Positions 3,001-47,646 of a stretch of 64,000 nt of DNA are shown in pieces. Source of the stretch: Desulfosediminicola ganghwensis (GTDB taxonomy: Bacteria > Desulfobacterota > Desulfobulbia > Desulfobulbales > Desulfocapsaceae); NCBI RefSeq assembly GCF_005116675.2, contig NZ_CP050699.1, positions 4,459,001-4,523,000 of the forward strand. Reading direction: 5' to 3'. Made by a program: the position numbers and the translations under genes. Within the stretch, counting starts at the first letter, position 1. The number at the start of each line of letters is the position of its first letter. Below the pieces are notes generated by a model that was not told where the DNA came from, ran no database searches, and was given only the letters and a program-made list of their open reading frames with translations.

Positions 3001-3992
3001 ACTGTGGCCGGGTAACTGCTCACCCCGTCATCACCCAGAACCGATGCCGGCTGGCCGATCGCGGTATCGATCAGGGTAACTGTGGCACCGTTCACCAGTT
3101 GGCCGGTGTCGCTGTCAAAGACCACACCGAAGGGATCGACCAACGCCGCACTGGTGGCGACATCCGAGATATCCAGCTGATCGTAGTAGCGGGCAGTCAG
3201 GGTACCATCCTCCACCAGCGATAGAGTACCGTTGTTGGCTGTGGCAGGATCTCCGCTGGAGGGAATATAGCCGGTGAAGACGCCTGTATTCGATCCGGTT
3301 TCGGTCAAAAGCAGCACTTCCCTGTCGCCCGTATCACTCGAAGTGACGGTAACGACGATGGTCTCAGCAAGGGAAATATCCTGGTTCTGATCCTGATCGG
3401 TAACACGCAGAAAGATCGGTTCACCGATATGAAAGATCTCGGTGGGGGTCAGCGGCAGCTGAGCGCTGAGGTCCACCGGGGTCGAGGAACCAAAGGGAGT
3501 AGGAGCCGGTAGCGGCCTGAAGGGGCCGTCTTCGCTGCCGCTGGTGCTGTGCCCGGTAACATTGACCCGGACCTGTTCGGATCCTGAGGACGTTGCGTAG
3601 TTTAAAAACTCAATGGTCGACGGTGTGTTCAGCCCCACCGTGATAATTCTGGACAGGTTGGACGGCAGAGTGACCGAGCTTATCGGCCCCGTCCGAAAAG
3701 ATGCCGAAGCGATATTGTCAATGGCCGTTCCGGCTGGGGTCCTGGCAGCTTTTGCGAAGATCGGAGTCAACAGCAGCACAAGGCAGCTGAGCAGCACCAG
3801 GCAACTCAACAGCGCCTGCCTGTGGCGGTGGCCGATATTGGCGGCCGCCACAGGCAGACGGGCAAACCAGCCGCGAAACTGGTTTGCCGTATTGTTCTGC
3901 TTGTCCAAGACGCACCTGTCCCCCATCCCGGCGACAGTGCCGAAATCATGCAGCGGCCTGGCGGCCGGGATGCTGAAATCAGGTGAAAACAT
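1..3992 (-). CDS. Giant exported DUF11/SdrD-B-like surface protein, 3' end outside the window
   Basis: An open frame runs without a stop from an ATG at 3992 to the left edge (about 1330 codons seen), so the gene is cut by the window. About 55 polar residues precede a hydrophobic stretch (around residues 58-80) ending near FAKAA, which looks like an extended signal peptide; a later start is possible. Then come beta-rich segments, a DUF11-like module starting near GIWVQKEANKDEAAIGDFVG, a Cna-B/SdrD-like module (YVVSDKQGRYHFEGIEPGTH), a second DUF11-like part, Ig-like segments, and from about residue 1130 short alternating strands (for example FYALFGDMQTGL) that could begin an outer-membrane beta barrel. 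It lies 36 bp after the 351-residue DUF11 gene and is probably in the same transcript. Role inferred: cell-surface or outer-membrane protein. Substrate unknown. Confidence 0.8.
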   Translation of the reverse strand, partial: MFSPDFSIPAARPLHDFGTVAGMGDRCVLDKQNNTANQFRGWFARLPVAAANIGHRHRQALLSCLVLLSCLVLLLTPIFAKAARTPAGTAIDNIASASFRTGPISSVTLPSNLSRIITVGLNTPSTIEFLNYATSSGSEQVRVNVTGHSTSGSEDGPFRPLPAPTPFGSSTPVDLSAQLPLTPTEIFHIGEPIFLRVTDQDQNQDISLAETIVVTVTSSDTGDREVLLLTETGSNTGVFTGYIPSSGDPATANNGTLSLVEDGTLTARYYDQLDISDVATSAALVDPFGVVFDSDTGQLVNGATVTLIDTAIGQPASVLGDDGVSSYPATVVSGGVTYDSSGRAYTAPVGGYRFPLIVPGTYRLEIEPPSGYIAPSTVPTSSLQSLPGAPYAIEPGSRGESFIVNPGPTVHIDIPVDPVRTGIWVQKEANKDEAAIGDFVGYTIQVENFDQSETATDVVVSDRLPTGFRYQAGSTRLDGISAADPEISTDGRTLSYRLGELAPEASVEIRYVIEIGAGTKTGYNRNSAAALAQGGLSSNTASAVVTVREDFLRSSSLLMGRVMAGGCDKPDTELEGVGGVRIYLEDGTYVVSDKQGRYHFEGIEPGTHVVQVDLASLPPAYEPIACEENNQFAGRNFSQFVDIQGGTLWRADFHVKLKEKPQGAVTIELNSTLDEDIVSWQIPLGISQVDLKNLRLSVILPKGLEYLTGSSRLGDQAIDDPGGKPPVLTYRLGDGLAGWHGEITLKTRVGVGAPQEMALRTILTFNSPAQQNQRTPMVDNLIRNEGKRIDNTQILDLAKDNSGLQQTETVGLRPGADGELPEKDLPDPEKMPAYDKAWLANADAGTEWLWPQPGKTPAIPSIKAAIKHAAGLKVKLRLDGRDVSPLAFEGTTANQAGSTAVSIWRGIGINKGDNNLTADLYDANGKLVEQLTRLVHYSFGPAHAELVKDQSTLVADGKTPPVIAVRLTDRDGYPVSSGMIGEFSVEPPYSQLIDKSEKNSSLDTDRPKYQVGPDGVARIILEPTPQSGEAVVRLPLEDETEEISAWLKPVAREWILVGFAEGTLGYNTLSGNQVSLDEAEVDDHFYEDGRIKFFAKGAIKGEWLLTVAYDSDKEELDGDSLYQIIDPDSYYPLYGDETQQSYEAASARKIYVKLEKNQFYALFGDMQTGLTQTELSRYSRSMNGFKSELQGEKIEFNLFAADTRQGFVKDEIRGDGTSGRYYLSHQDLVINSETIVIETRDRFQSEKILSSQTMQRHIDYNIDYGDGTLFFKRPIASKDESFNPIFIVADYETRTSNQSEFNYGGRAAVKMLDQKLEVGASLIHEDSGVD

Positions 3993-4028
3993 CAGATCAA
4001 TAATCCCTCAGTACGCCTTGGATAATGG

Positions 4029-5084
4029 TTAATTGATCTTTACTTTGAAAATCATGGTGCCCTTAGCACTAGCGGCGATTGAGCCGTCTTCACAACTAAC
4101 ATCTGTGACAGTGCCGCTACCGTCATCGGTAACAGTGGCCGTGCTGCCGCTCAGGCCTGTGCAGACGAGACTTGCAGGATGGTAGGTGGTGTTGGCCGGA
4201 ATCGGGTCACTGATGATTACGCCGCTTGCACCATTGCTCCCATCTTCATTTAAGACCTCAATGGTATAGGTGACGATATCGCCTGGCAGGTAATAGCCGG
4301 AACCGTTGTCGCCAGCATCAATGGAGGCTGTCTTTGTTACGTTCAACACAGGCCAGTAGACGGTATATGTCGCCAGAGCAGAGTGCTCGCCGTCAGTGTC
4401 AATGTCGTCAGTATAGGTACCGTTACTATCTGCGAAGACCGCTTCGCTTTCGTTGGCATCATTGGAGCCAGGGTTATCACCAATTGCATCCTGAGACAGA
4501 ACATTTTGGGAGCCATCGGTGGCTGTCGCGCGCAGATGGTAATCATATGCTTCCCCATTTGCGGCATCGGCCTCGGCGTCGGCGACGATGTAGATGGTGG
4601 TCACCGCGTCTCGTTCAAGATTGATGTATACTTTTTTAGTGGGATCGGGATCGGTCAGCTTTGTATCCTCACCAATCTGATACCCCCCACTCGTACCGTC
4701 CTCCTGCCAGATTTCGACGTTTGTCATGTCGTAATCTGCTGCGCCCGGTAACGCTTCCAGCAGCATTTCCAAGGTCTCGCCAGTTTTGGTGTTGCCGTCG
4801 TTGGTGACCGTAAATTGGAGAACGTAGTCCAATCCTTCAGGTACAACAGAATCACCCGACACGGCAGCTACAAGCGGACGGATTTTGTGGTCGACCTTAA
4901 AGCTGACCTTACCATCGACCTTAGGAGTAGTTACCCCACCAATGGTGAAAGTGACGCTCGCCGTGTTTTCGATTAAGGTATCGGCTGTAGTGTCAGTTAT
5001 TGCTGCTTGGACCTGGCCGGCAACAAGCAGGGCCAGGGTGGACCCTAGAACGGTGCCCAACATTCCGCTCATGTTTCGTTTCAT
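4029..5084 (-). CDS. Exported DUF11-type protein, 351 aa
   Basis: The N-terminus is a clear Sec signal (MKRNMSGMLGTVLGSTLAL, cleavage near VQA-AI). The mature part opens with a segment like that of the 338-residue neighbour (NTASVTFTIGG followed by VDGKVSFKVDHK). It ends in a DUF11-like module: WPVLNVTKTASIDAG, GDIVTYTIEVLN, SDPIPANTTYHPASL and a final strand IFKVKIN. Two Cys late in the module (VCTGL and SCEDG) could form a disulfide. It sits between the 163-residue and the giant DUF11 genes, all in one direction. DUF11 domains are typical of bacterial and archaeal surface proteins. No enzyme motif is visible. Function unknown; a structural or adhesive surface role is inferred. Confidence 0.8.
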   Translation of the reverse strand: MKRNMSGMLGTVLGSTLALLVAGQVQAAITDTTADTLIENTASVTFTIGGVTTPKVDGKVSFKVDHKIRPLVAAVSGDSVVPEGLDYVLQFTVTNDGNTKTGETLEMLLEALPGAADYDMTNVEIWQEDGTSGGYQIGEDTKLTDPDPTKKVYINLERDAVTTIYIVADAEADAANGEAYDYHLRATATDGSQNVLSQDAIGDNPGSNDANESEAVFADSNGTYTDDIDTDGEHSALATYTVYWPVLNVTKTASIDAGDNGSGYYLPGDIVTYTIEVLNEDGSNGASGVIISDPIPANTTYHPASLVCTGLSGSTATVTDDGSGTVTDVSCEDGSIAASAKGTMIFKVKIN

Positions 5085-5220
5085 CTTTTTCTCTCCATTT
5101 GAGTTTTACTTTGTTGCATGGCAGACAACTGGCCATGACAACTTTGCAGTAACTGCCTTTTATCGTTTATAAATATTTCTTCTTTAAAGCTGTTTATCTG
5201 TCACCTAAGTCACTGGTAAT

Positions 5221-5712
5221 CTATTTCAAACGAGCGCGGAACTCCACATCCTTGCTCTCCCCCGGTTTGAGCGAAGACTTGAGCTGCCAGCGGACATGGG
5301 TGTAATCCCTTCCGGTGGCCGGGCGTGAAGTGCCGTCCTGCTCGACGATGAACAGGTTGCCGGGAGCATCGAAGGTGTTTCCGTTGTCGGTGGAAAAGGT
5401 GACGGCGACCCCGGCTTCGGTGGCCGAGCTGTCGATATAGACGGTATGCTCGGGGATCGGGTTGTTGATGACCACATCATCGATGGGGCTATCACTGACA
5501 TTGGTGCAGGTGTTAGTGAAAAAAACGATGGTGCCCGGCATGACCTTGGCCGCCGGCACCCGTCTGGTCTCCTTTTCACCCTGTTCATTGACCACCGTCT
5601 CCTCGATTTCAGCCTTGGAGACGATGGAGATGGGCTCTTTCGCTGCGGCAATGCCAACCATACTTGTCAAAACCAGCAGCAGCACGGCAAACAGTGTCTG
5701 ATACGCTTTCAT
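5221..5712 (-). CDS. Small exported DUF11-type protein, 163 aa
   Basis: The signal peptide is MKAYQTLFAVLLLVLTSMVG, with cleavage near IAAA-KE. The rest is essentially one DUF11-like module: VMPGTIVFFTNTCTNVSDSP, then NNPIPEHTVYIDSSATEAG, ending in VEFRARLK. That ending matches the closing strands of the neighbouring 351-, 338- and 1290-residue proteins (FKVKIN, FEVTIK, FRVRLQ). It could be a minimal subunit of the same surface structure. An acidic stretch (EIEETVVNEQGEKETRR) precedes the module. It lies 136 bp before the 351-residue gene and shortly after a palindromic repeat element. No catalytic residues are recognisable. Confidence 0.78.
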   Translation of the reverse strand: MKAYQTLFAVLLLVLTSMVGIAAAKEPISIVSKAEIEETVVNEQGEKETRRVPAAKVMPGTIVFFTNTCTNVSDSPIDDVVINNPIPEHTVYIDSSATEAGVAVTFSTDNGNTFDAPGNLFIVEQDGTSRPATGRDYTHVRWQLKSSLKPGESKDVEFRARLK

Positions 5713-5750
5713 GATTACTACTCCGTCAATAAGTGTGACTCTTTACGTAC

Positions 5751-5897
5751 TAGGAGCCTGTCGGACTACTGCAATTTTTTCACAAATCAAGGCGTCTGGA
5801 GGAAATTAAGCGGAGCCATATAATTAATATTGCGAGCATTAATTTCCTCTTGATAACGCTGAGTTGTGAAAAAAGGGCTTAGTCAGACAGACTCCTA
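5751..5897. repeat. Palindromic MITE-like element, copy 1 (147 bp)
   Basis: The ends are inverted repeats: TAGGAGCCTGTCGGACTA on the left, and the reverse complement of the right end reads TAGGAGTCTGTCTGACTA (2 mismatches in 18). Pairing continues inward through a TTTTTTCACAA block on both arms and GGAAATTAA blocks nearer the centre. The outermost TAG of the right end is the stop codon of the gene ending at 5895. Copies 2 (50534-50683) and 3 (56062-56150) share the terminus, the T-run and core sequence. As RNA it would fold into one long hairpin. No transposase is encoded. Confidence 0.75.
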
Positions 5898-6911
5898 TTT
5901 GATGGTGACTTCAAAGGTGATGGTGTTGGTTGTACCGGGTGCTTCTCCGCCAGTGACATTACCGAGATCGACCTTAATTTCATAACTTTCCGGTACTGTT
6001 CCCAACGGCTCCAGCTTTCCCTCGTCACTGTCGTCATCATCAGTCAGTGGGCTGCCGTTGAGTTGCATACTGTCGCCAACATAGCTGGTCGCTGCCGGGA
6101 TCGGGTCAGTAATCACCAGTCCTGCGGCAGTACCACCAATCACCTCGACAGTAATGGTGTACTCGATGGTGGCGCCCGGTACCGGCTCGGTTCCAGTACC
6201 AGTCAGCCCGTCTTCGATCACCACCCCGGTCTTGTCGATGGTAACATCGACGCGGCTGACCTGGTAGGTGCCGTCGGCGTTGGCTGACGCACCGCTGGTG
6301 CCGACCACAGCCGCGACACTGCCGTTATAGCCAGCGTTAGCATATGCCGTTCCTTCCGGACCGGTCCCGGTCTGGGCATCAGCCTGCAGGTTGCTGATAC
6401 CTAGCTCGGTGTCGGCGGGTGTATCAGGGATATCATTGAACACAAAGAGATAAATACTCTCATCTGCGGCCAAGGCAGGCAGGTTGCTCCCGTCATACAG
6501 GGTGTCTGTGCCATCATCGTAGGTGTCGTTATCGTTGGCATCGAAATAGATGGTAGTGGGAGTCTCCGGGTCGAAATCATCGGTAGTATCCGTGTTATCA
6601 ACCGTCAGTGTGAAGCCCTCCTGGTAATTGCCGGTATTGGTCAGCTCATAGGTGAGCATGGCCTTGGACTCTCCCGGTTTTACAGGAACGTTGCTTCCAT
6701 CGCGTGAAACCAGGGTAACATCGAGCAACTCGGCAACATTGAAGGTGACGGTGTCACTGTCTTTCTCCAGGTCGATGCCATCAACGTTGTAGTTGACGGT
6801 GGCCGTGTTGCTGATAGGAGTGCCCGCAATGGTACCGGCTGCCTCCGCCAGCGACGCTGTGGTACCGACAACAAGGCAGGTCAGCATTATCAGGTTTAGT
6901 GTTTTCTTCAT
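5895..6911 (-). CDS. Exported DUF11-type protein, 338 aa
   Basis: The ATG at 6911 is chosen because AAAGGAG lies 7 nt upstream; a TTG two codons earlier is less likely. The signal peptide is MKKTLNLIMLTCLVVGTTAS, with cleavage near AEA-AG. Mature order: a strand segment (SNTATVNYNVDGIDLEKDSD), an Asp-rich middle with possible Ca-binding runs (FDANDNDTYDDGTDTLYDG), then a C-terminal DUF11-like module (VDVTIDKTGVVIEDG, PGATIEYTITVEV, TDPIPAATSYVGDSM) ending FEVTIK. Its stop codon TAG is the terminal TAG of the palindromic element at 5751-5897. It lies about 125 bp after the 1290-residue gene. Surface protein inferred, activity unknown. Confidence 0.8.
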   Translation of the reverse strand: MKKTLNLIMLTCLVVGTTASLAEAAGTIAGTPISNTATVNYNVDGIDLEKDSDTVTFNVAELLDVTLVSRDGSNVPVKPGESKAMLTYELTNTGNYQEGFTLTVDNTDTTDDFDPETPTTIYFDANDNDTYDDGTDTLYDGSNLPALAADESIYLFVFNDIPDTPADTELGISNLQADAQTGTGPEGTAYANAGYNGSVAAVVGTSGASANADGTYQVSRVDVTIDKTGVVIEDGLTGTGTEPVPGATIEYTITVEVIGGTAAGLVITDPIPAATSYVGDSMQLNGSPLTDDDDSDEGKLEPLGTVPESYEIKVDLGNVTGGEAPGTTNTITFEVTIK

Positions 6912-7037
6912 CTCCAATCTCCTTTCTCTTTAAATCGATGGATCAAAATCATACTGATTGTCGTTTGTGTTTGGTTTGGTCATAACCTCCTCCCTCTTCG
7001 GTATCTGGCCTTATGGTTTCTATTGCCTCTATTCCAT

Positions 7038-10000
7038 CTATTGCAGCCGCACCCTGAAGGTGACGGTGAAGGAAGGATCGGTGATCCCGTCCGAAGCGTT
7101 GAACTGCCCGGCGGGCATGAACCGCAGGTACTTGACCGAGGGGTCGGTGCCGTTGCCGTCTGCGGTTGGGATCTGGCTGTAATCCGTGCCGTCGGCAGAG
7201 AACTCGACGTGATCGGTCAGATCGTTTAAGGCGGTATAGGTGAGGGTCAATCCGGTGGTCGCCTGGACGTTGCTGATTGTGACTGGCGGATCGGTGACCA
7301 CCAGCGCTGTATGTTCCGGAATGGGATCGACCAGCAATAGCGAATCGGCATCAGTGGCTGCCAGACCAGTGTTAGTGACCGTGATGCGGTATTCAATGAT
7401 GGCCCCGGGCACGTCATAAGGGTTCACCATGCCATGCTCCGGATCACTGACCGTCTTCGCGGACTTGACCACGGTCAGTACCGGCCAGGCCACAGGCGTA
7501 AAATCGACGCTGGCGCTGTCGTTGGCCGGGTCGCTATCGGTCTGGTCAAGGCCGGTGATACTTGCCGAGTTGGTCACGGTGGTGCCGACCGGGCCGTCAA
7601 CCCCGACCAGGATATCCAGCGTGGCGCTGTCACCCGCAGCCAGGCTGCCGACCAGCCAGCTACCGGTGGAGTAGCTGCCCTGGCTCGGCGTGCTGGAGAT
7701 CAAGGTGATCCCGGCCGGCAGGATATCCTCCACCTCGAAGCCGGTGGCAGAGTTGGCCCCCTCGTTGGTAACGGTAAGCATATAGGTCACTGCCCCCTGT
7801 ACCCCGGGGCTGGCGTTATCGATGGTTTTGGTCAGAGCCAGGTCGGTTCCTGCCACAGCAACGTCAGCGCTGGCAAAATCATTAGCTGGATTCTGGTCCC
7901 CCTGGTCCACCGCGTTGATCGAGGCATTGTTGGTGATATACAAGCCGCTGGTACTGCCCTTGACCCTGGCGATGATGTTAAGCTGCGCTGTTTGATTGTC
8001 CGAGAGGTTACCGATTGTCCAGATGCCGGATGCCTGGTCATAGTTGCCGGTGCTGGAAATATAGCTGACCTCTGGCGGCAGCAGGTCCCTTACCTCCACA
8101 CCGGTGGCATCGGTCGGTCCGTTGTTGGTGATGGTGACGGTGTAGATGATATCCTGATGCTCGTTCGGGGTAGGATCATCGACGGTTTTAGTGATGGCGA
8201 GATCGGTGCCGTCGACGGAAATCACACTGCTGGCAACGTTGTTGAGGTAGTTTGGATCTGCCTGATCACTTTCGGTAATCATGCCCACATTGGTGATGTT
8301 CTGGCCACTGGTGCCGCTATCCACCGTGGCATTGATGGTCAATGTTGCGCTCCCTGTCACGCTGAGATTACCGATATCCCATACCCAGCTGGGTTTACCA
8401 TTGCTCTTGGCATCATAACTTGTGCCTGCAGAGGCCGAATGGCTGGTGTAGGTAACACCTTCGGGCAGGATGTCAGTGACCGCAACCCCGCTTGCCGGAT
8501 TCGGACCATTGTTGGTCACCGTCAGCGTGTAGGTCGCGGAGTCGCCCGGGCTTGGGATTGAATTATTGACGGTTTTGGTGATCTGCAGGTCGGTACCGTC
8601 TACCTTGATGGTAGCCGCAGCCCAGTTGTTTGACTCAACGTCGTCGAAGTAATCCGAAGCGGTTATCTCGGCCGAGTTGATGATGGTCTGCCCTGCCGTG
8701 TCGTTGTTCACGTCGGCATCAATTTGCAGTGTTGCCGTGCTGCCAGAGGAGAGAGCACCGAGCGACCAGACGCCGGTCGCTGGATTATAGCTGCCCTGGC
8801 TGATCTGGCCCACGCTGTCGAAGCTGATCCCGGACGGTAGCTGATCCGTTACCGCCACGCCGGTGGCATCGTTGGGCCCATGATTGGTCACCACCAATTC
8901 GTAACGGACACTGTCGCCTTCGTTGGGAACCGCGATATCGACCAGAGGGTTGTATGAAGGCCCCACGCCCACCATCTTGGTCAATTCCAGGTCGTGGAAG
9001 TTCACCTTGATGTCGACTCCGGCCGAGTCGTTGGCCGGGTTGCTCTCAGGCTCGTTGATAACGGTAAGGCTTGCACTATTGGTCAAGATGGTGTTTGCGG
9101 TACCGGGCGCAGGACGGGCCGGGATGGTGAGGACAGCCCCGACACCACTGGCGAGATCGCCCACGGTCCAGACTCCGGTTGCTTCATTGTAGCTGCCTTG
9201 GGTGGCGCTGTAGCCTGTGGCCGAATCATAGTTCAGACCGCTGGGGAGCAGGTCCGTAACAACAACGCCGCTGGCGTTGTTGGGGCCAAGGTTCAAAGCC
9301 CTGACACTGAAAAAAATCAGTTCATTTTCGGCCGGATACTCATCGTCGACCGACTTACTGATTCGGATATCCGTACCGCCGACATAAAGCTCGGCGCTGG
9401 CGGAGTTGTTACCAGCGTATCCGTCTATTTCATTGAGTACAGTGATCGTGGCCGTGTTGACAATGTTGCCGATGGCGGCACTGACCTGGGTATCGATGGT
9501 CAGGGTGGCGGAAGCGCCGGTGTTCAGCATCCCCACTGACCAGTTGCCCGAAACCGGGTCGTAGCTGCCGACCGATGGTGTGCTGGCCTGGTAGCTGAGA
9601 CCGGCTGGCAGCTGGTCGTTGACCACAACCCCAGAAGCGTTGTTGGGTCCCTGGTTGGTGATGGTGAGGCTGAACTGAACACTATCGCTCTGCTGTACCA
9701 CCGAGCTATCAACCGATTTTTCGAGAGCCAGGTCGGTGGCGGTGGTGGTGAAGGTGATGGTATCTGTGCGGTTCACCTCCTGATTGCCGCTGGCGTCGAT
9801 CGAGTCGATATAGGTAACGGTGATGATCTCCTGATCTGTCGGAGAAGACGCAGGTGGCCAGACCTGAAGAGTTGTATCAGAGGAATCAATATCCTTTGAT
9901 TTGGTGACTTCCTCGGTCACCACAGCGCCAGTAAACTTTCCGGCCACACCGGTTGCGGTGAGGATAACCACCACCGAGTCGCCGCTTGGCGCGGTGAGTT

Positions 10001-35117: not shown

Positions 35118-36980
35118 TCAGTGCCGTTCCACCAATTTATCATCTTCGAACACCCCGCGTACAACCCCGCCGTCCGGTAGAGTCAGAGTGCCGGTACCAT
35201 CACGGCGGCCTTTTTCAAACTGTCCTTCAAATCTGCTCCCATCGTTGGAAACAAGTACGCCATTGCCATGGGGCACATCTTCTAAAAATTCACCCTGGTA
35301 GACACTCAGGTCACTGTAGGTCAATCTGCCGGTTCCACTAAATTTGCCTGCGTCGAAGTTTCCTTCATAGACGGAACCGTCCGCAAAAATGTAAATGCCA
35401 TCACCGGAAAACTGGTCGTTGACGAATGTACCGGTATATGAAGTAGCATCCGGGTAGGTTAACGTTCCTTTTCCGTTTTTTACACCGTCTGCAAATTCAC
35501 CACGATATTCACGCTTATCTGAATAGGTGTAGATGCCTTGACCGTGGATTTTCCCAAACGAAAACTGACCTTCATAGACGTCACCATTGGCAAAACGCAA
35601 GTTTCCATCCCCCTGCATCAAACCATCCTGCACCCCGCCTGAATAGATTGAGCCGTCCGGGAAGAGCATCTGTGCCGAGCCGGTCACCGGCTCGTAGGTC
35701 ATGTTGTCATGACAGATACGGCCATCATGGTAAACAAACCCGTCACCATTCGGTGAGAGCTCTTCAGGTGAAGTTATCTCATTCACCACAGGGGCGTCTC
35801 CGCTTTCGGCGGTCACAGCCATTGCCATCGCTGAAGTTGCTGCAACTGCTGCCGGTACGACTTCATCACTGTTTTCATCTGCCACCTGCTCCTCACCTGG
35901 CACAAGAGACTCAGCTGGCGGATATGCCTGGTCAACGATGGCTTTCGTTGGCTGGCTTCGTATCTCAACCGGATCAGGATAAACCGGTTTACCGGCCACA
36001 AAGGCACCGGCAAACTTTGAACCGTCAGCCCGGGTAAGTTCGCCCTCTCCTTCTATCTGGTCATTGCGGAAATTTCCTGTATAAACGCTACCATCCTTAT
36101 AATGAAAGGTGCCGAAGCCGTGCCGCTTGCCGTCAATGAATTCACCATCGTACCTGCTGCCGTTCGGGTATTCGAGTACACCGGTGCCCTCCTGCCGGTC
36201 GTCAACAAAGTGCCCAAAATAGACCCAGCCTTCTGTGGAAAAGTATGCACCCTTGCCATGTCGCTTGTTATGCCGAAAGATCCCGCTGTAGCGACTTCCG
36301 TCAGGATAGATGAGAGTCCCCTCACCATTAAATCCGCCGAGCGCAAACATGCCGCTATAGACGCTCCCGTCAGCATTTTCCAGTTTGCCTGGCCCATGCC
36401 ACTGACCTATACGATAGCCGCCGCTATAGCGGCTGCCATCTGCATAGGTCTGAGTTCCTTCCCCATCTCTTTTCCCGTGGGCAAAATGTCCTTCATACCG
36501 GGTCCCATCCGGATAATCCAACTTACCCTCACCATGAATAATGCTGTTTCTGAACTCTCCGGTATAGCTGCGGCCATCAGGATACATGAGGGTACCGGTA
36601 CCATGGTATTTACCCAGGTTGAAATCCCCGCTGTACCGTACGCCATCTGGGCTGATCAGCTCACCTTGGCCATGGATGACATTTTCACGGAAATTACCAA
36701 GGTATTTTCGGCCATCAGCACCGAGCAATTTGCCCTTGCCATGAAACCGGCCGTTACGAAAATTGCCCTCATAGACAGTACCATCCGGGTAACGCAGGGT
36801 ACCTTCACCGCTCCCCATGGCGTTTACAAACCCGCCACGATATTCCCGCCCGTCGGAATGGATATAGACACCTGTGCCGTTAATGCAGTTCCCTTCAATA
36901 CATTCCGCACCGGCACTACAAACCCCACCTGTCAATACCGCACATACGGCCCCCAGCTGCAACACTCTTTTCACGCCCAC
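35118..36980 (-). CDS. Secreted MORN-repeat protein, 620 aa
   Basis: A Sec signal (VKRVLQLGAVCAVLTGGVCS, cleavage near SAGA-EC) is followed by two blocks of 23-residue MORN repeats of the form YxGxFxxGxxHGxGxxxYxDG. I count 13 in block 1 (about residues 48-335) and 8 in block 2 (about 445-620). The linker (about 340-440) is Ala/Glu/Pro/Val-rich and low complexity. A few Cys at the N-terminus (CIEGNC) and in FVYHDGRICHDN. MORN proteins bind lipids and act as scaffolds or rulers in eukaryotes; bacterial secreted versions are uncharacterised. It is 40 bp after avtA but functionally unrelated. Confidence 0.85.
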   Translation of the reverse strand: MGVKRVLQLGAVCAVLTGGVCSAGAECIEGNCINGTGVYIHSDGREYRGGFVNAMGSGEGTLRYPDGTVYEGNFRNGRFHGKGKLLGADGRKYLGNFRENVIHGQGELISPDGVRYSGDFNLGKYHGTGTLMYPDGRSYTGEFRNSIIHGEGKLDYPDGTRYEGHFAHGKRDGEGTQTYADGSRYSGGYRIGQWHGPGKLENADGSVYSGMFALGGFNGEGTLIYPDGSRYSGIFRHNKRHGKGAYFSTEGWVYFGHFVDDRQEGTGVLEYPNGSRYDGEFIDGKRHGFGTFHYKDGSVYTGNFRNDQIEGEGELTRADGSKFAGAFVAGKPVYPDPVEIRSQPTKAIVDQAYPPAESLVPGEEQVADENSDEVVPAAVAATSAMAMAVTAESGDAPVVNEITSPEELSPNGDGFVYHDGRICHDNMTYEPVTGSAQMLFPDGSIYSGGVQDGLMQGDGNLRFANGDVYEGQFSFGKIHGQGIYTYSDKREYRGEFADGVKNGKGTLTYPDATSYTGTFVNDQFSGDGIYIFADGSVYEGNFDAGKFSGTGRLTYSDLSVYQGEFLEDVPHGNGVLVSNDGSRFEGQFEKGRRDGTGTLTLPDGGVVRGVFEDDKLVERH

Positions 36981-39832: not shown

Positions 39833-40342
39833 TCACTTGCGACTATGTTCAGGATGCCTCTTGGGGTAGTCGAAGAACTGCAAATGCCCTCCAGCCTCTC
39901 CCACCTGATGCCAGCCATCGATATCAAAAGCGATCCCGACGATGCCACAGGTGGGAACATTACCTAAAGGCTCATTGGTGAGATATTCAGCAAAATCGGT
40001 AAGCACATAGTTATGCCCTACCAGAAAAAGCCGTCTGATTCGATTCTCTGTCTGGCGGACGACGAGAAGTAACTTATTCATATCTGCAGTATAAATATCA
40101 CCGCGCTGCTGAATACGTTCCTGCGGGTAGCCGACGCATTCGGCAATCGTTCCTGCAGTTTTCCTGGCTCGTTTGGCGGGGCTGGTATAGACCATATCCG
40201 GCCGCACTCCATACTTTTTCAAACGCGAACCCATGAAAGGCGCGTCCCGTTTGCCGCGTTTGTTCAGCGGACGCTCAATATCATCAAGGCCGGGATTGCT
40301 CCAGCTCGACTTTGCATGGCGTATCAGATACAGCTCCTTCAT
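39833..40342 (-). CDS. sixA: SixA-type histidine phosphatase
   Basis: A 169-residue histidine-phosphatase superfamily protein with the RHG-type motif LIRHAKSSWSNPGLDD (catalytic His 8) and the second His in LFLVGHNYVLTDFAEYL. SixA proteins dephosphorylate phosphohistidine, for example on HPt domains, though homologues next to CHAD genes may act on other substrates. Its ATG overlaps the parA stop by 4 bp (ATGA), so the two are translationally coupled. The set is CHAD-parA-sixA. Confidence 0.88.
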   Translation of the reverse strand: MKELYLIRHAKSSWSNPGLDDIERPLNKRGKRDAPFMGSRLKKYGVRPDMVYTSPAKRARKTAGTIAECVGYPQERIQQRGDIYTADMNKLLLVVRQTENRIRRLFLVGHNYVLTDFAEYLTNEPLGNVPTCGIVGIAFDIDGWHQVGEAGGHLQFFDYPKRHPEHSRK

Positions 40343-41085
40343 ATCAGCTCACTCCTGTCCCACAACTCTTGCCACAGCTCCTGATAGCGCTGTGCGGCAA
40401 CAGATGTTGGAGAAACAGCACCAACCGGCTGCCGATATATTCCCATTTTCTCTATCTCTGCCTGAAATGGGATCTGGGTATCACGAAAGATCGGGTAGTG
40501 CTGAAATTTTTCCACCACATCCTTATGCATCAGTTTACGTGGTTCAACCATCGAAAAAAAGGCGTTGATTCGTTTCTCTTCTGCTCCGACTTTACGAAAG
40601 ATCTTCAACAACTGCTTCAAGGCAACCAGCGAAAGAGTTGTTGGAATGACCGGAGTAACGACAGAGTCTGCGGCGAGAATGATATTCTCTGAGAGCAGGG
40701 TTATATTGGGCGGGCAATCCATAACCAGTACATCATAATGGTCGCTCAGGCTGTCAAAAAGATTTTTCAGAGCCCGGCGCCTGGTACTCGCCTCAAGCTT
40801 AGCTAAGGCAAGGTCAAGATTGCGGAAAGAAAAATGGGCCGGCAACAGATCGAGGTTTTCGTAATCAGAGGCACGGATATACTTATCGAAACCGCCGCCC
40901 AGTAGTTTTTTACCACTGAAACTCCTGGCGGCTTTAACTCGAAAATAGTATGAAGCGGCGCCCTGGGCGTCAATATCACAGAGCAAAACCCTGTGACCTT
41001 GCCGCGCAGCACAATATGACAGGTTCACCGCCGTAGCCGTCTTGCCCACCCCTCCTTTGCTGCTATATACCGCAAAAATCTTCAT
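40339..41085 (-). CDS. ParA/MinD-type ATPase
   Basis: The 248-residue protein begins with the deviant Walker A motif SSKGGVGKTATAVNLSY, then LLCDIDAQGAASYYF and the Walker B segment VLVMDCPPNITLLSENI. ParA-family ATPases move or position cargo on the nucleoid or at the membrane. No parB follows, and the gene sits far from any origin marker in this window, so it is an orphan ParA. It is 22 bp after the CHAD gene (GAGGAAAGG just before the ATG) and overlaps sixA. Its cargo is therefore probably linked to CHAD, that is, polyphosphate. Confidence 0.88.
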   Translation of the reverse strand: MKIFAVYSSKGGVGKTATAVNLSYCAARQGHRVLLCDIDAQGAASYYFRVKAARSFSGKKLLGGGFDKYIRASDYENLDLLPAHFSFRNLDLALAKLEASTRRRALKNLFDSLSDHYDVLVMDCPPNITLLSENIILAADSVVTPVIPTTLSLVALKQLLKIFRKVGAEEKRINAFFSMVEPRKLMHKDVVEKFQHYPIFRDTQIPFQAEIEKMGIYRQPVGAVSPTSVAAQRYQELWQELWDRSELI

Positions 41086-41107
41086 CCTTTCCTCTACATC
41101 CGAGCTC

Positions 41108-42679
41108 TCAATCTACCTTCCTTTCAGGAGGCTGTTCGCACCTGCCGGCGAATATCTGCTCAAGCAGATCTATGTTCTTTTTGGCTGCGAAATTCTGAAA
41201 GGTTTGCTCGAATTTGGTCCTGACCTCCTGCTGCGCATCACCCATATGGACAATGAGCCCGCCAAGTGCCGCAGCCAGCGCCAACGAGTCGGGGGTAGTC
41301 GGTTTAAGTTGCTGCAGTCGTACCAGCAACACCTCCCGCTGTACCGAATAATCATTGAAATCGCCGAGGTTATTCTGCAGCTTCTTCATCTGCTTCAGAT
41401 ATTCAAGAGTTGCCTCTTCAGCAAATATTGAGCAGAAAAACTCGAGCATATAACGGAATTTTTTGCCCTCGATACGCAACTCATGGAGTTTTTCATCCCC
41501 TGTTTCCGGAGTAATCCTACCACCTTCTTTCAGGATGCGCTTAAACCGTTTACGGATAATCTTCTCGGCAACCTCCCGGCAGTTTGCAGCTCCCGCTGGA
41601 TAATCATCCCGATCCGGCAACAGCTCTAAAAACTGCTGCCACCCTTCTATCAGCTGAGAAAATCGCTCCGATTGAAGCGCAGCTTTCATTTGACGAAGAT
41701 CCTTTTTTCGCTGGCTGGCCAGAGTAAGAAAAAAACTTTTCAGACCGGGTTGAAGTTCCACCGGCAGCATCCCCTGGTACTGGTCTGTCATCAACAGATA
41801 TACATCCAGATCACGAACCGGCCCGGTGACGGTACCCAACCACTTAAACTCCTCCTGAAACTGGCGCACCTCGCCCTGCGGGAGATATTTTTTCAACAGG
41901 GACAGCAGAGAGCGGGTCCTTCGCACCGCCACACGAAAGTCATGGAGAAACTCCGAATCGATATCCTCCAGAGTCCCGCTAAGATTTCTGAGCATTGCCT
42001 CTTTAAGCACAATGCAAATCTGCTGCACCGCCTCAGCGATACTCGCCTCAGCCGATAACCGGCAGGAAAATTTTGAACTGGTGATACTCCTGTCCACTCC
42101 AAAAGCCTGGTGCAACCTCTCCATCAGGCTCTCATCCTCACCGCACTTCCGGAATTCCTCAGCTCTCAGAAGGGCTACCACCTTCTTCTTCGGCTTGTTA
42201 TATCCTCGCAATGGTTTGAGGATGAGCAAGGGCTGCAGCTCACGGTGTTCATCTCCATGCTCAGCACTCTGGCGAATAACGCTGAACCGCAGAACCGTTT
42301 TCTGATCTTTGTTCAGCAAGGCCACATCATTCTGAGCAGTTTCGACTGTGAACTGCGGCAGCAGCGCACGAACGTCCATACATTTTGCCAGATGTTCACG
42401 CAAGGCACCTTGGGGAAAATCCCGCAATAAAGGGCGTGGCTTTCTTGAGCCGGTCTCCGAAGCAAGGATAGCTCCGTCGAGGTTGGAAAAGGTATATTTG
42501 TATCCTGCACGCTCCACCATTACCCCGTTGGAAACAAGTCTCCAGTCCCAGGTATCAAGATAGGTGGAGCGGTACTGTTGCTCACCGGTCTCTTCAAGCA
42601 GATAGAGATCTTCAAGCTGCTGGTAGAGTCGAGACAAATCATAGCCGGGTGGTAACAGATAGGATACGTTATTCTCCAT
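41108..42679 (-). CDS. CYTH-like plus CHAD domain protein
   Basis: The start at ATG 42679 (GGAG 8 nt upstream, 523 residues) avoids the overlap with argJ that a start at 42712 would make. Residues 1-200 are CYTH-like (TYLDTWDWRLVSNGVMVERA), though the ordered EXEXK signature is not obvious, so triphosphatase activity is doubtful. Residues about 210-500 are a CHAD helical domain with HDFRVAVRRTRSLLSLLKK and KLHELRIEGKKFRYMLEFF. CHAD domains bind inorganic polyphosphate and localise to granules. It precedes parA and sixA in an overlapping array. Confidence 0.88.
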   Translation of the reverse strand: MENNVSYLLPPGYDLSRLYQQLEDLYLLEETGEQQYRSTYLDTWDWRLVSNGVMVERAGYKYTFSNLDGAILASETGSRKPRPLLRDFPQGALREHLAKCMDVRALLPQFTVETAQNDVALLNKDQKTVLRFSVIRQSAEHGDEHRELQPLLILKPLRGYNKPKKKVVALLRAEEFRKCGEDESLMERLHQAFGVDRSITSSKFSCRLSAEASIAEAVQQICIVLKEAMLRNLSGTLEDIDSEFLHDFRVAVRRTRSLLSLLKKYLPQGEVRQFQEEFKWLGTVTGPVRDLDVYLLMTDQYQGMLPVELQPGLKSFFLTLASQRKKDLRQMKAALQSERFSQLIEGWQQFLELLPDRDDYPAGAANCREVAEKIIRKRFKRILKEGGRITPETGDEKLHELRIEGKKFRYMLEFFCSIFAEEATLEYLKQMKKLQNNLGDFNDYSVQREVLLVRLQQLKPTTPDSLALAAALGGLIVHMGDAQQEVRTKFEQTFQNFAAKKNIDLLEQIFAGRCEQPPERKVD

Positions 42680-42692
42680 GCAGGAAACTCCG

Positions 42693-43880
42693 TTATGACC
42701 GATAATCGGCATTAATTTTCACATAATCAATCGAGAAATCACAGGTGTAGATTTCTTCACAACCATTACCCTCTTTCAGGTCGATGCAAACGTTGAATTT
42801 TTTCTCTTTCAAAACTTCTGATGCCTCAGCTTCCGCCTCCTTGCCCACAGCCTGACCGTCACGGGCGATCACCACATCGTTAAAGGCAATATCGACCTGA
42901 TCCGGATTGAAGCGAACACCCGACCGCCCCATTGCCGCCATAATCCGCCCCCAGTTTGCATCCTCTCCAAAGAAGGCTGTCTTAACCAGAGCGGAGTTGG
43001 CAATAGTCCTGGCCATCTTCTCCGCTTCTTCATCCTCCCGGGCACCGCAAACCCGGATAGTGATACACTTGCTCGCACCCTCACCATCCGCTACGATCAT
43101 GAGCGCCAGATCGCGTAATAACGACTCCAACGCATCCTGAAATATTGCGTAATCGGCAGCACATTCTTCATCAAGCCAGGGATTTCCGGCCTCGCCATTT
43201 GCCATTACCAGTACCATGTCATTGGTGCTGGTATCGCCATCAACCGTAATTCGGTTAAAGGTTCGCTCGACACTGCTGACCAGGGTTTTATGCAGTTCAA
43301 CAAAACCTACCTGGGCATCCGTCAGCACAAAGGCCAGCATCGTTGCCATATTCGGCATGATCATGCCGGCACCTTTGGCCATACCCATCAAAGTAATCTC
43401 CTTGCCGCCTATCACCACTTTTTTCACAGCGGTCTTCGGAACGGTATCGGTGGTCATGATCGCTTGCGCTACTTTACCGAAGTTACCTTCATCAAGACCT
43501 TCAACCAGGGTTGGAATACTCGTCTCAAAAGCCTCCATATTGAGTTGGTCCCCAATCACACCGGTAGACGAAAGCTGAACCATATTATCGGCGATCCCGA
43601 GAGCATCTGAAAGCAATTTACTCGACCGCAGGGCAGAATCCATACCCTGCTTGCCGGTACAGGCATTTGCACAACCGCTGTTTACCAGAATCGCCTGGGC
43701 TTTGCCCTCTTGTTTGAGCCGGTCCATATCAATCACAACAGGTGCTGCCTTAACCTGGCTGGTGGTAAAAGCACCTGCTGTGACAGCAGGCTTCTCACTA
43801 AAGATCAATCCAAGATCCAACCTGTCTTTGTACTTAATGCCAGCAGCTACCGCCGATGTTTTAAATCCTTTAACGCCCAT
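42693..43880 (-). CDS. argJ: Bifunctional ornithine acetyltransferase / N-acetylglutamate synthase
   Basis: ArgJ transfers acetyl groups from N-acetylornithine to glutamate in cyclic arginine synthesis. The ATG at 43880 gives 395 residues beginning MGVKGFKTSAVAAGIKY as in the family; a TTG three codons earlier is unlikely. The autocleavage Thr lies in PNMATMLAFVLTDA, so a processed alpha/beta enzyme is expected. It lies 13 bp upstream of the CHAD gene, in the same direction, but is unlikely to be functionally linked. Confidence 0.96.
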   Translation of the reverse strand: MGVKGFKTSAVAAGIKYKDRLDLGLIFSEKPAVTAGAFTTSQVKAAPVVIDMDRLKQEGKAQAILVNSGCANACTGKQGMDSALRSSKLLSDALGIADNMVQLSSTGVIGDQLNMEAFETSIPTLVEGLDEGNFGKVAQAIMTTDTVPKTAVKKVVIGGKEITLMGMAKGAGMIMPNMATMLAFVLTDAQVGFVELHKTLVSSVERTFNRITVDGDTSTNDMVLVMANGEAGNPWLDEECAADYAIFQDALESLLRDLALMIVADGEGASKCITIRVCGAREDEEAEKMARTIANSALVKTAFFGEDANWGRIMAAMGRSGVRFNPDQVDIAFNDVVIARDGQAVGKEAEAEASEVLKEKKFNVCIDLKEGNGCEEIYTCDFSIDYVKINADYRS

Positions 43881-44249
43881 GTATTTCAATGTCCTGTGTG
43901 TGAATGAAACTCAATGAAAGCTTCCATTATTCTCCGATCAGAGATTTTCAGTTTCATCTCCGACCAATTTCCCCCGTCTGACTTTTGTGCATCTCAGCCC
44001 CGGAACGGATCTGCAAGATATCATTTCCCTTGCAACCGGGCGCGTGATTCAATACAATCTATCATTTATCTGTCTGAATATGCTACCCTAAAATCATAGA
44101 GACCAGTGTTGCTCCCCATCTAAAAACACTAGGGAACAATAGTGATTGATAACCCGCATACTTCAGAATACCGACCACAGTTCTAACATCTTTCAGCAGC
44201 CGTTACGGCCGTTAATAACAGATCATTCCACACTATTACCAATCTCTTT
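43881..44249. other. Divergent region between argJ and cls
   Basis: This 369-bp gap must carry promoters for argJ (minus) and cls (plus), but no clear box pair was found. The short frame at 43914-44099 has no site or family resemblance. No hairpin with long arms was seen. Confidence 0.35.
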
Positions 44250-46668: not shown

Positions 46669-47646
46669 ATGTCTTTACCCACCAATAGCAAACAGAATTC
46701 ACCGATGTTCGATCCTGATCGGGGTGCCTCCTCCATAATCAGGGATCTCGTCAAGGACCTTGATAAGAACCTCAAATCTGTGCCGCCTTCCGGGATAACC
46801 AAGGCAATGTCGGAACTGCTCCCTGCCAAGCATAAGGATGAGATTGTTGAGGCAGCGCTTCTGAAGTATTATTATGCGGAAGAGCTGAAACCGTACCAGG
46901 CAGAGCTCATCAAAATGCAGGTTCATCTTGAAAAGACCGGCAAAAAAATGATCATTCTGTTCGACGGCCGTGATGCCTCCGGCAAAGGCGGCACCATCCG
47001 TCGGGTTACCCGCTACATGAATGAAAAGCGCTATCGCGTGGTGGCTCTCGGCAAACCCAACGAAATCCAACAGACCGAACTGCACATTAAAAGATACATC
47101 GAACAGTTCCCCCACGCAGGAGAGATCGTCCTGTTTGACCGCAGCTGGTATAACCGGGCAATGGTTGAACCGGTAATGGGCTTTTGCAGCGAGGACCAAT
47201 ACCGACGCTTTTTGAAAAAGGTCAACAGCTATGAGGAAAATTTTATCCTCGATGCCGGCCGCACCACTCTCCTCAAACTGTACTTTTCGGTTTCCAAAGA
47301 TGAGCAGGCTAAACGATTTGAGCGCAGACGCAATGATCCGTTGCGTCAGTGGAAATTGAGTGAGGTCGATCTGCAGGCCCAGGAGCTGTGGGATGAGTTC
47401 ACTGAAAAGAAAAGAGTTCTTTTGCAGAAAACCCACACTAATACGTCAAAATGGTGGGTTGTCCGTTCGGATGATAAACACCTGGCCCGGCGTGAAACCA
47501 TGAAGCTGATTCTGAATTCAGTAAAATACCGTGGCAAAAGCCGATCATTAAACTTCAAGCTGGACCCTGATATCGTTATCCCCGGAAATGTGGAACTTAA
47601 AAGGATGATGGCTGAGAAAAAACAATATGGTTCAGCTTTACGCTGA
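46669..47646 (+). CDS. ppk2: Polyphosphate kinase 2
   Basis: A 325-residue one-domain PPK2 with the Walker A loop DGRDASGKGGTIRRVTRYM, Walker B DRSWYNRAMVEPVMGF and the lid RFERRRNDPLRQWKL. PPK2 enzymes transfer phosphate between polyphosphate and nucleoside phosphates; the N-terminal extension and length suit class I (NDP phosphorylation), but this cannot be confirmed by eye. TTGGAG lies 8 nt before the ATG. It ends at a bidirectional terminator facing secA and is about 4 kb from the CHAD-parA-sixA set. Confidence 0.93.
   Translation: MSLPTNSKQNSPMFDPDRGASSIIRDLVKDLDKNLKSVPPSGITKAMSELLPAKHKDEIVEAALLKYYYAEELKPYQAELIKMQVHLEKTGKKMIILFDGRDASGKGGTIRRVTRYMNEKRYRVVALGKPNEIQQTELHIKRYIEQFPHAGEIVLFDRSWYNRAMVEPVMGFCSEDQYRRFLKKVNSYEENFILDAGRTTLLKLYFSVSKDEQAKRFERRRNDPLRQWKLSEVDLQAQELWDEFTEKKRVLLQKTHTNTSKWWVVRSDDKHLARRETMKLILNSVKYRGKSRSLNFKLDPDIVIPGNVELKRMMAEKKQYGSALR

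Follow-up and report, generated by a model that had tools for sequence, protein, structure and literature searches.

A 64,000-nucleotide stretch of Desulfosediminicola ganghwensis DNA (contig NZ_CP050699.1, positions 4,459,001 to 4,523,000; hereafter the window) contains a gene for a protein with a CHAD domain, followed directly by a gene for a ParA-type ATPase. We found that the two form a real, tight and conserved pair. The pair is conserved in numerous relatives, frequently close to enzymes of polyphosphate (polyP), and may therefore place polyP granules. Comparison of sequences and structures identified a CHAD protein of the polyP-binding type, intact ParA motifs, no nearby ParB, a conserved pairing and co-occurrence with polyphosphate kinases (PPK). 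We tentatively read the pair as an ATP-driven cargo-positioning module that has the polyP granule as its cargo.

Conservation of the CHAD–ParA pair and its link to polyphosphate kinases

Using thresholds of E 1e-30 for ParA and E 1e-8 for CHAD, we searched 144 genomes of the class and found ParA in 83, CHAD in 79 and both in 75 (Fisher p 3e-26, kinship ignored). ParA lies directly downstream, on the same strand, in 74 of 84 CHAD matches, while CHAD lies directly upstream in 74 of 89 ParA matches; at least one of the 15 ParA matches lacking an upstream CHAD (G065) sits at a contig edge. Four class genomes hold CHAD without such a ParA and eight hold ParA without a CHAD match. The gap between the two genes is 30 nt or less in 46 of 59 measured loci, with overlapping genes in 31. 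These 59 loci include L099 (G090, 3936-5797), where a second CHAD gene is followed by a truncated parA remnant.

Across the phylum (247 genomes, ParA threshold E 1e-45, a limited number of candidates scored per genome), this ParA was found in 12 genomes, 6 of which belong to the window's own order. CHAD adjoins ParA in 10 of the 12, and in 4 of the 6 outside the order; of the remaining two genomes, one carries CHAD on another contig and the other has no CHAD match. Given how frequently the adjacency recurs across loci, we dismiss chance as its cause, although common descent accounts for much of it within the class.

A single syntenic order would by itself prove little. The order argJ-CHAD-parA, usually followed by sixA, accounts for 36 of the 63 class loci compared, and in nine loci ppk1 lies next to CHAD-parA on the opposite strand. 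Two further families of the phylum have ppk1-CHAD-parA, accompanied by SixA in L117 and by both CYTH and SixA in L119. Paracoccus plasmids carry CHAD-parA-CYTH-NUDIX, the P. marcusii copy having pst-phoU-phoB slightly upstream; the top six Paracoccus plasmid records of the ParA search are all also CHAD matches, with coordinates beside ParA. The presence of the pair in these other contexts indicates that shared ancestry is not its only cause. Thus, the CHAD–ParA pairing put forward in the first-pass annotation of this DNA is upheld, as it recurs in a number of gene orders, of which two place it beside ppk1.

The class genomes also link this ParA to polyP synthesis. PPK1 or PPK2 is encoded in 80 of 83 genomes with ParA, compared with 13 of 61 without it (kinship again ignored). 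The link is weaker for PPK1 alone (49 of 83 versus 8 of 61). Two of the three ParA genomes lacking PPK are G038 and G051, whose ParAs belong to GAK loci.

Polyphosphate-binding and ATPase features of the pair

The features of the pair in the window are listed below.

41108..42679, minus strand: TTM-like/CHAD protein of 523 aa, candidate polyP-granule adaptor (PF05235, 204 bits; cut-off 25.6)
42080..42679, minus strand: its N-terminal domain, ~aa 1-200, predicted triphosphate-tunnel-like fold without ExExK (domain model)
41141..42067, minus strand: its CHAD domain, ~aa 205-513, with putative polyP-contact positions H246, R249, R253, R289, R409 and Y410 (model compared with 6qva)
40339..41085, minus strand: ParA-type ATPase of 248 aa, Walker A motif KGGVGKT with signature lysine K10 (PF13614, AAA_31, 132 bits)

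An alternative CHAD start at 42712 is possible; we prefer 42679 because GGAG lies upstream of it and a start at 42712 would overlap argJ.

The CHAD family profile scored 357 bits against CtCHAD of Chlorobium tepidum (6qva, 6qv7), to which identity is 38-39% over ~310 residues. The CHAD model (pLDDT 77, pTM 0.57, built from a four-sequence alignment) aligned with 6qva over 308 positions (root-mean-square deviation (rmsd) 1.7, Z 34.4). Mutation of six CtCHAD residues, H253, R256, R260, R296, R418 and Y419, reduced polyP binding (PMC6537752), and all six contacts are identical in 37 of 37 CHAD rows, with positions numbered by counting along the alignment. Conservation is looser in the outer basic patches: the K441 position is K in 36 of 37 rows and the R385 position is basic in 11 of 37. 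By sequence and predicted fold, the window CHAD is therefore of the type proven to bind polyP, in line with the binding ascribed to it in the first-pass annotation. In contrast to the window protein, the solved CtCHAD structures hold the CHAD domain only, and the excerpted CtCHAD text draws no link to ParA.

The N-terminal domain model (pLDDT 76) matched the ygiF tunnel domain with Z 9.4 (129 aligned positions, rmsd 4.5) and SaTTM with Z 8.9. Further structural matches form a long list of TTM proteins together with Mediator subunits; we take the Mediator head subunits to be fold relatives. This Z-score comparison covered Foldseek's own list of candidates, and Foldseek alone gave no match to the domain under E 0.001. 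Pfam CYTH likewise gave no match on the CHAD protein at E 1e-3. The moderate Z scores suggest a triphosphate-tunnel-like fold, so that the label 'CYTH-like' holds for the predicted fold and not for a Pfam match. CYTH/TTM enzymes carry the catalytic motif ExExK near the N terminus. No ExExK/R occurs in the first 30 aa of the CHAD protein in any of 37 rows, while EIERK is present in all six stand-alone CYTH proteins inspected from nearby loci.

CHAD proteins adjacent to ParA are long: in the phylum set, the open frame reaches 500 aa or more in 10 of 10, whereas 17 of 20 other CHADs fall below 500 (Fisher p 1e-5; 0.002 excluding genomes of the window's own order). The extra N-terminal domain thus appears to accompany ParA and would be the natural place to seek a ParA contact.

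In the ATPase, the deviant Walker A motif with its signature lysine and the Walker A' aspartate are intact, K10, K15 and D39 being invariant in 37 of 37 ParA rows. The best solved-structure matches of the ParA profile are ParA/Soj partition proteins, led by the ParA 8ray (E 4e-35, 124.3 bits). We found two other ParA-type matches in the genome at E 1e-5, and its sole ParB_N match (E 1e-4) adjoins another ParA at 721 kb. The window ParA is therefore without a nearby ParB, as the first-pass annotation had it, and we reject a ParABS reading on this ground, despite the ParA family sequence and motifs that the two share; parS was not searched for. A membrane-targeting C terminus on ParA was also unconvincing (hydrophobic moment 0.41, net charge -2 over 18 residues).

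SixA, neighbouring genes and other ParA relatives

Three further genes of the window bear on the pair.

39833..40342, minus strand: SixA-like histidine phosphatase of 169 aa with RHAK and VGHN motifs, optional member of the set (PF00300, His_Phos_1, 46.8 bits)
46669..47646, plus strand: PPK2 polyphosphate kinase, context, outside the operon (PF03976, 254 bits)
42693..43889, minus strand: argJ, arginine synthesis, upstream neighbour, context (PF01960, 490 bits)

Coordinates derived anew agree with those first assigned to the three minus-strand genes CHAD, parA and sixA, with a 22-bp gap between CHAD and ParA and a 4-bp overlap between ParA and SixA; the end of argJ lies 13 bp from the CHAD start. 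The PPK2 gene, on the opposite strand, was likewise correctly placed at about 4 kb (4.0 kb from the CHAD start). A MORN protein (35118-36980, minus strand, with 10 matched MORN stretches and, by eye, a signal-like N terminus) is also encoded in the window, and one is present downstream of the operon in many relatives.

The first-pass annotation had treated CHAD, ParA and SixA as one set. The assignment of the third member is sound at the level of the histidine-phosphatase superfamily profile, whereas its TIGR00249 (SixA) score of 59.2 bits lies below the equivalog cut-off of 74.5. In 38 of 58 CHAD–ParA loci (37 by distance scan, plus L038), SixA follows ParA at a distance of no more than 1.5 kb. 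SixA also stands beside CHAD, on either side, without ParA (L097, L101, L124, L131, L136), and in four more such loci ppx is near (L122, L127, L128, L130). On account of these loci we reject a fixed three-gene unit; the set splits into CHAD–ParA and CHAD–SixA. SixA goes with CHAD and polyP genes more than with ParA, and is probably an accessory phosphatase of polyP metabolism or signalling. The CHAD–SixA link is not new, as archaeal CHAD clusters with SixA and PPX are shown in a published figure legend (PMC10892726). Among the SixA-like proteins, one (L119, 1-867) has its SixA-like domain after an N-terminal region weakly matching the MutT1 (8-oxo-dGTP phosphatase) model, and another (L117, 6346-7296) has a long extension ahead of SixA.

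The closest named relatives among the matches found are Desulfopila aestuarii and Desulfosediminicola flagellatus, with 75% for ParA. A scan of genome contigs with one query sequence found at least three loci with ParA relatives, and none was confirmed on viral contigs. Two ParA relatives of 37-39% identity lie within GAK-system loci (L092 in G051 and L093 in G038, ~3700-9800). L093 shows matches to TIGR04356 and TIGR04357 together with an amphi-Trp-like protein; in L092 there is a match to GAK ATP-grasp, alongside a PhoU-phosphotransferase fusion. The GAK-locus ParA is another ParA without a known cargo. On Marinobacter nauticus pMAQU02 (L113, 1673-6747), genes for acetoacetyl-CoA reductase (phbB) and pyruvate kinase are found close to a ParA from the wider group, which is possibly another granule-linked ParA.

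Granule positioning and its alternatives

In the mechanism that we tentatively favour, the CHAD domain would grip polyP at the granule surface, while the N-terminal triphosphate-tunnel-like domain without its catalytic motif, or another CHAD surface, would contact an ATP-bound ParA dimer on the nucleoid. This contact would trigger ATP hydrolysis by ParA. Granules would then track ParA gradients and be spaced and shared out at division, in the manner of carboxysomes with McdA/McdB. We infer every step beyond polyP binding, namely CHAD–ParA contact, nucleoid binding, ATPase stimulation and granule movement.

The pair resembles McdA/McdB in placing a ParA-type ATPase beside a cargo protein, without ParB and with what would here be a non-DNA cargo. 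In contrast, the McdA chain 6noo scores 48.7 bits on the ParA profile, compared with 124.3 for the best ParA, and the CHAD protein lacks a charged disordered N terminus. No carboxysome gene is among ten named window proteins, and McdB was not searched for.

Several observations weigh against granule positioning. Known ParA/MinD partners share a positively charged disordered N terminus (PMC10241942). Unlike these, the first 30 aa of CHAD are predicted to be mostly structured, and their median charge is -1 (at least +3 in 2 of 37 rows; -5 in the window). Most ParAs are basic (median pI 9.5, range 6.0-9.9), but their C-terminal 40 aa have a median charge of only +1, so that nucleoid binding could not be confirmed. 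In Ralstonia, CHAD depletion gave no apparent phenotype; in favour of the reading, CHAD over-expression there can shift granules to the poles (both as cited in PMC6537752). Furthermore, such a ParA is missing from 19 of the 30 CHAD genomes of the phylum set, and 13 class genomes have PPK but no such ParA.

Phylogeny adds to these reservations. A ParA tree of 80 rows, 58 of them with an adjacent CHAD (rows under 200 aa dropped), does not show the CHAD-linked ParAs as one clade. The CHAD-adjacency label changes 7 times on this tree, compared with 19.6 in shuffles. Among the 22 CHAD-less rows, 12 nest among CHAD-linked rows, as if CHAD had been lost; the other 10 lie outside and comprise chromosomal ParA, GAK-locus rows, five plasmid rows and two others. 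The Paracoccus rows nest inside a second, mostly ppk1-linked group. The fork joining L117, L119 and L120 to the remaining CHAD-linked rows is unsupported either way, and several outer branches are long. In a mirror-tree comparison with argJ held constant, the ParA–CHAD distance correlation was 0.63; as the neighbour PLD correlates equally well with ParA (0.65), this shows nothing special for the pair.

The genus g2 also tells against CHAD as an obligatory partner. In seven of its loci parA lies between argJ and an MFS gene with no CHAD there (L052, L058, L059, L105-L108), and in six g2 genomes ParA and PPK2 are present without any CHAD match; three genomes of this genus (G017, G089 and G101) hold CHAD elsewhere. 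The ParAs of the CHAD-less g2 genomes retain 40 to 43 of the 44 residues that are invariant in the family (rows L058, L077, L095, L105, L106 and L107), which suggests that they are probably functional with another partner. The first-pass annotation had named parA-sixA without a CHAD gene as an arrangement at odds with its proposal. Such a case occurs in part: L044 has parA-sixA with no adjacent CHAD, but its genome has CHAD-parA at L081, and in the six g2 genomes ParA occurs where CHAD gave no match.

It is rather unlikely that ParA is instead an ATP-driven regulator of polyP metabolism, recruiting or switching PPK and CHAD without moving granules, comparable to BcsQ in cellulose synthesis. 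Such a role would fit the co-occurrence of ParA with PPK genes, a CHAD lacking the usual ParA-partner signature, and loci L089 and L091, in which ppk1 precedes parA without an intervening CHAD (both genomes hold a CHAD-parA pair elsewhere). It would also fit matches to the BcsQ profiles, PF06564 at 35.9 bits (above its cut-off of 21.3) and TIGR03371 at 59.9 bits (below its cut-off of 157.85). However, partition proteins are the best solved-structure matches by sequence, and in the loci examined ParA pairs more tightly with the polymer-binding protein than with ppk1.

We consider it quite unlikely that ParA is a static nucleoid tether, which would space granules by binding DNA and form no ATP-driven gradients. 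AlgP of Pseudomonas aeruginosa, which spaces polyP granules (PMC9239181, PMC13052382), offers a precedent, and the basic pI of ParA is compatible with it. AlgP differs in being a histone H1-like DNA-binding protein and not an ATPase; a plain tether is disfavoured because it would not need ATPase motifs, which are invariant here in 37 rows.

That the gene order merely reflects shared ancestry, with ParA serving another cargo and only neighbouring CHAD, is decidedly unlikely. The prevalence of argJ-CHAD-parA, the retention of ParA without CHAD in g2, where 40 to 44 of 44 family-invariant residues are kept, and the ParA relatives in other systems (the GAK loci L092 and L093) speak for it, whereas the other orders, the Paracoccus plasmids and the overlap of CHAD and parA genes speak against it. 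Finally, an enzymatic role for the CYTH-like/CHAD protein (adenylate cyclase or tripolyphosphatase, with ParA incidental) is very unlikely: a cyclase reading is in print for the Acidithiobacillus CYTH-CHAD protein (PMC6416229) and the N-terminal fold is predicted to be TTM-like, but the ExExK motif that all six stand-alone CYTH proteins keep as EIERK is missing.

The first-pass annotation knew of no described system of this composition. This does not hold for the genes, since a folD-ppk-parA-CHAD cluster, with ppk, parA and CHAD side by side, has been printed for Acidithiobacillus (PMC10892726, PMC6416229) and was called highly conserved in a 2024 copper study (PMC10892726, section 3.3); we know this cluster from print and not from sequence. 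It does hold for the function, as the excerpted text contains no positioning proposal and discusses the cluster with copper resistance or cAMP signalling. More widely, we found no proposal in open-licence PubMed Central excerpts that ParA positions polyP granules, a search that a preprint or subscription paper could escape. The adjacency of ParA, CHAD and ppk is thus already published for Acidithiobacillus, and ParA positioning of polyP granules is unproposed within that literature.

Returning to granule positioning, it is possible, and we advance it a little more guardedly than the module itself, that the pair represents a dedicated ATP-driven polyP-granule partition system. This would consist of a ParA subfamily and a polyP-gripping TTM-CHAD adaptor without catalytic motif. 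Thermodesulfobacteriota and Paracoccus plasmids would carry it, with ppk1 as its neighbour in several lineages, and Acidithiobacillus would probably do so too, its printed cluster being of the same composition. If true, this would be a ParA system that moves an inorganic polymer as cargo and relies on a folded adaptor where others use a charged disordered tail.

We count cable bacteria in the broader lineage from which the window comes. They have placed granules, in thin filaments mostly one per cell pole (PMC9159916). According to excerpts of a 2025 review, the ATP dependence of polyP granule placement is unknown, only AlgP is named for polyP granules, and the proteins that place granules in Caulobacter are not identified (PMC13052382). 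Granule spacing and inheritance are open questions, and the conserved ParA–CHAD pair is one testable candidate for both.

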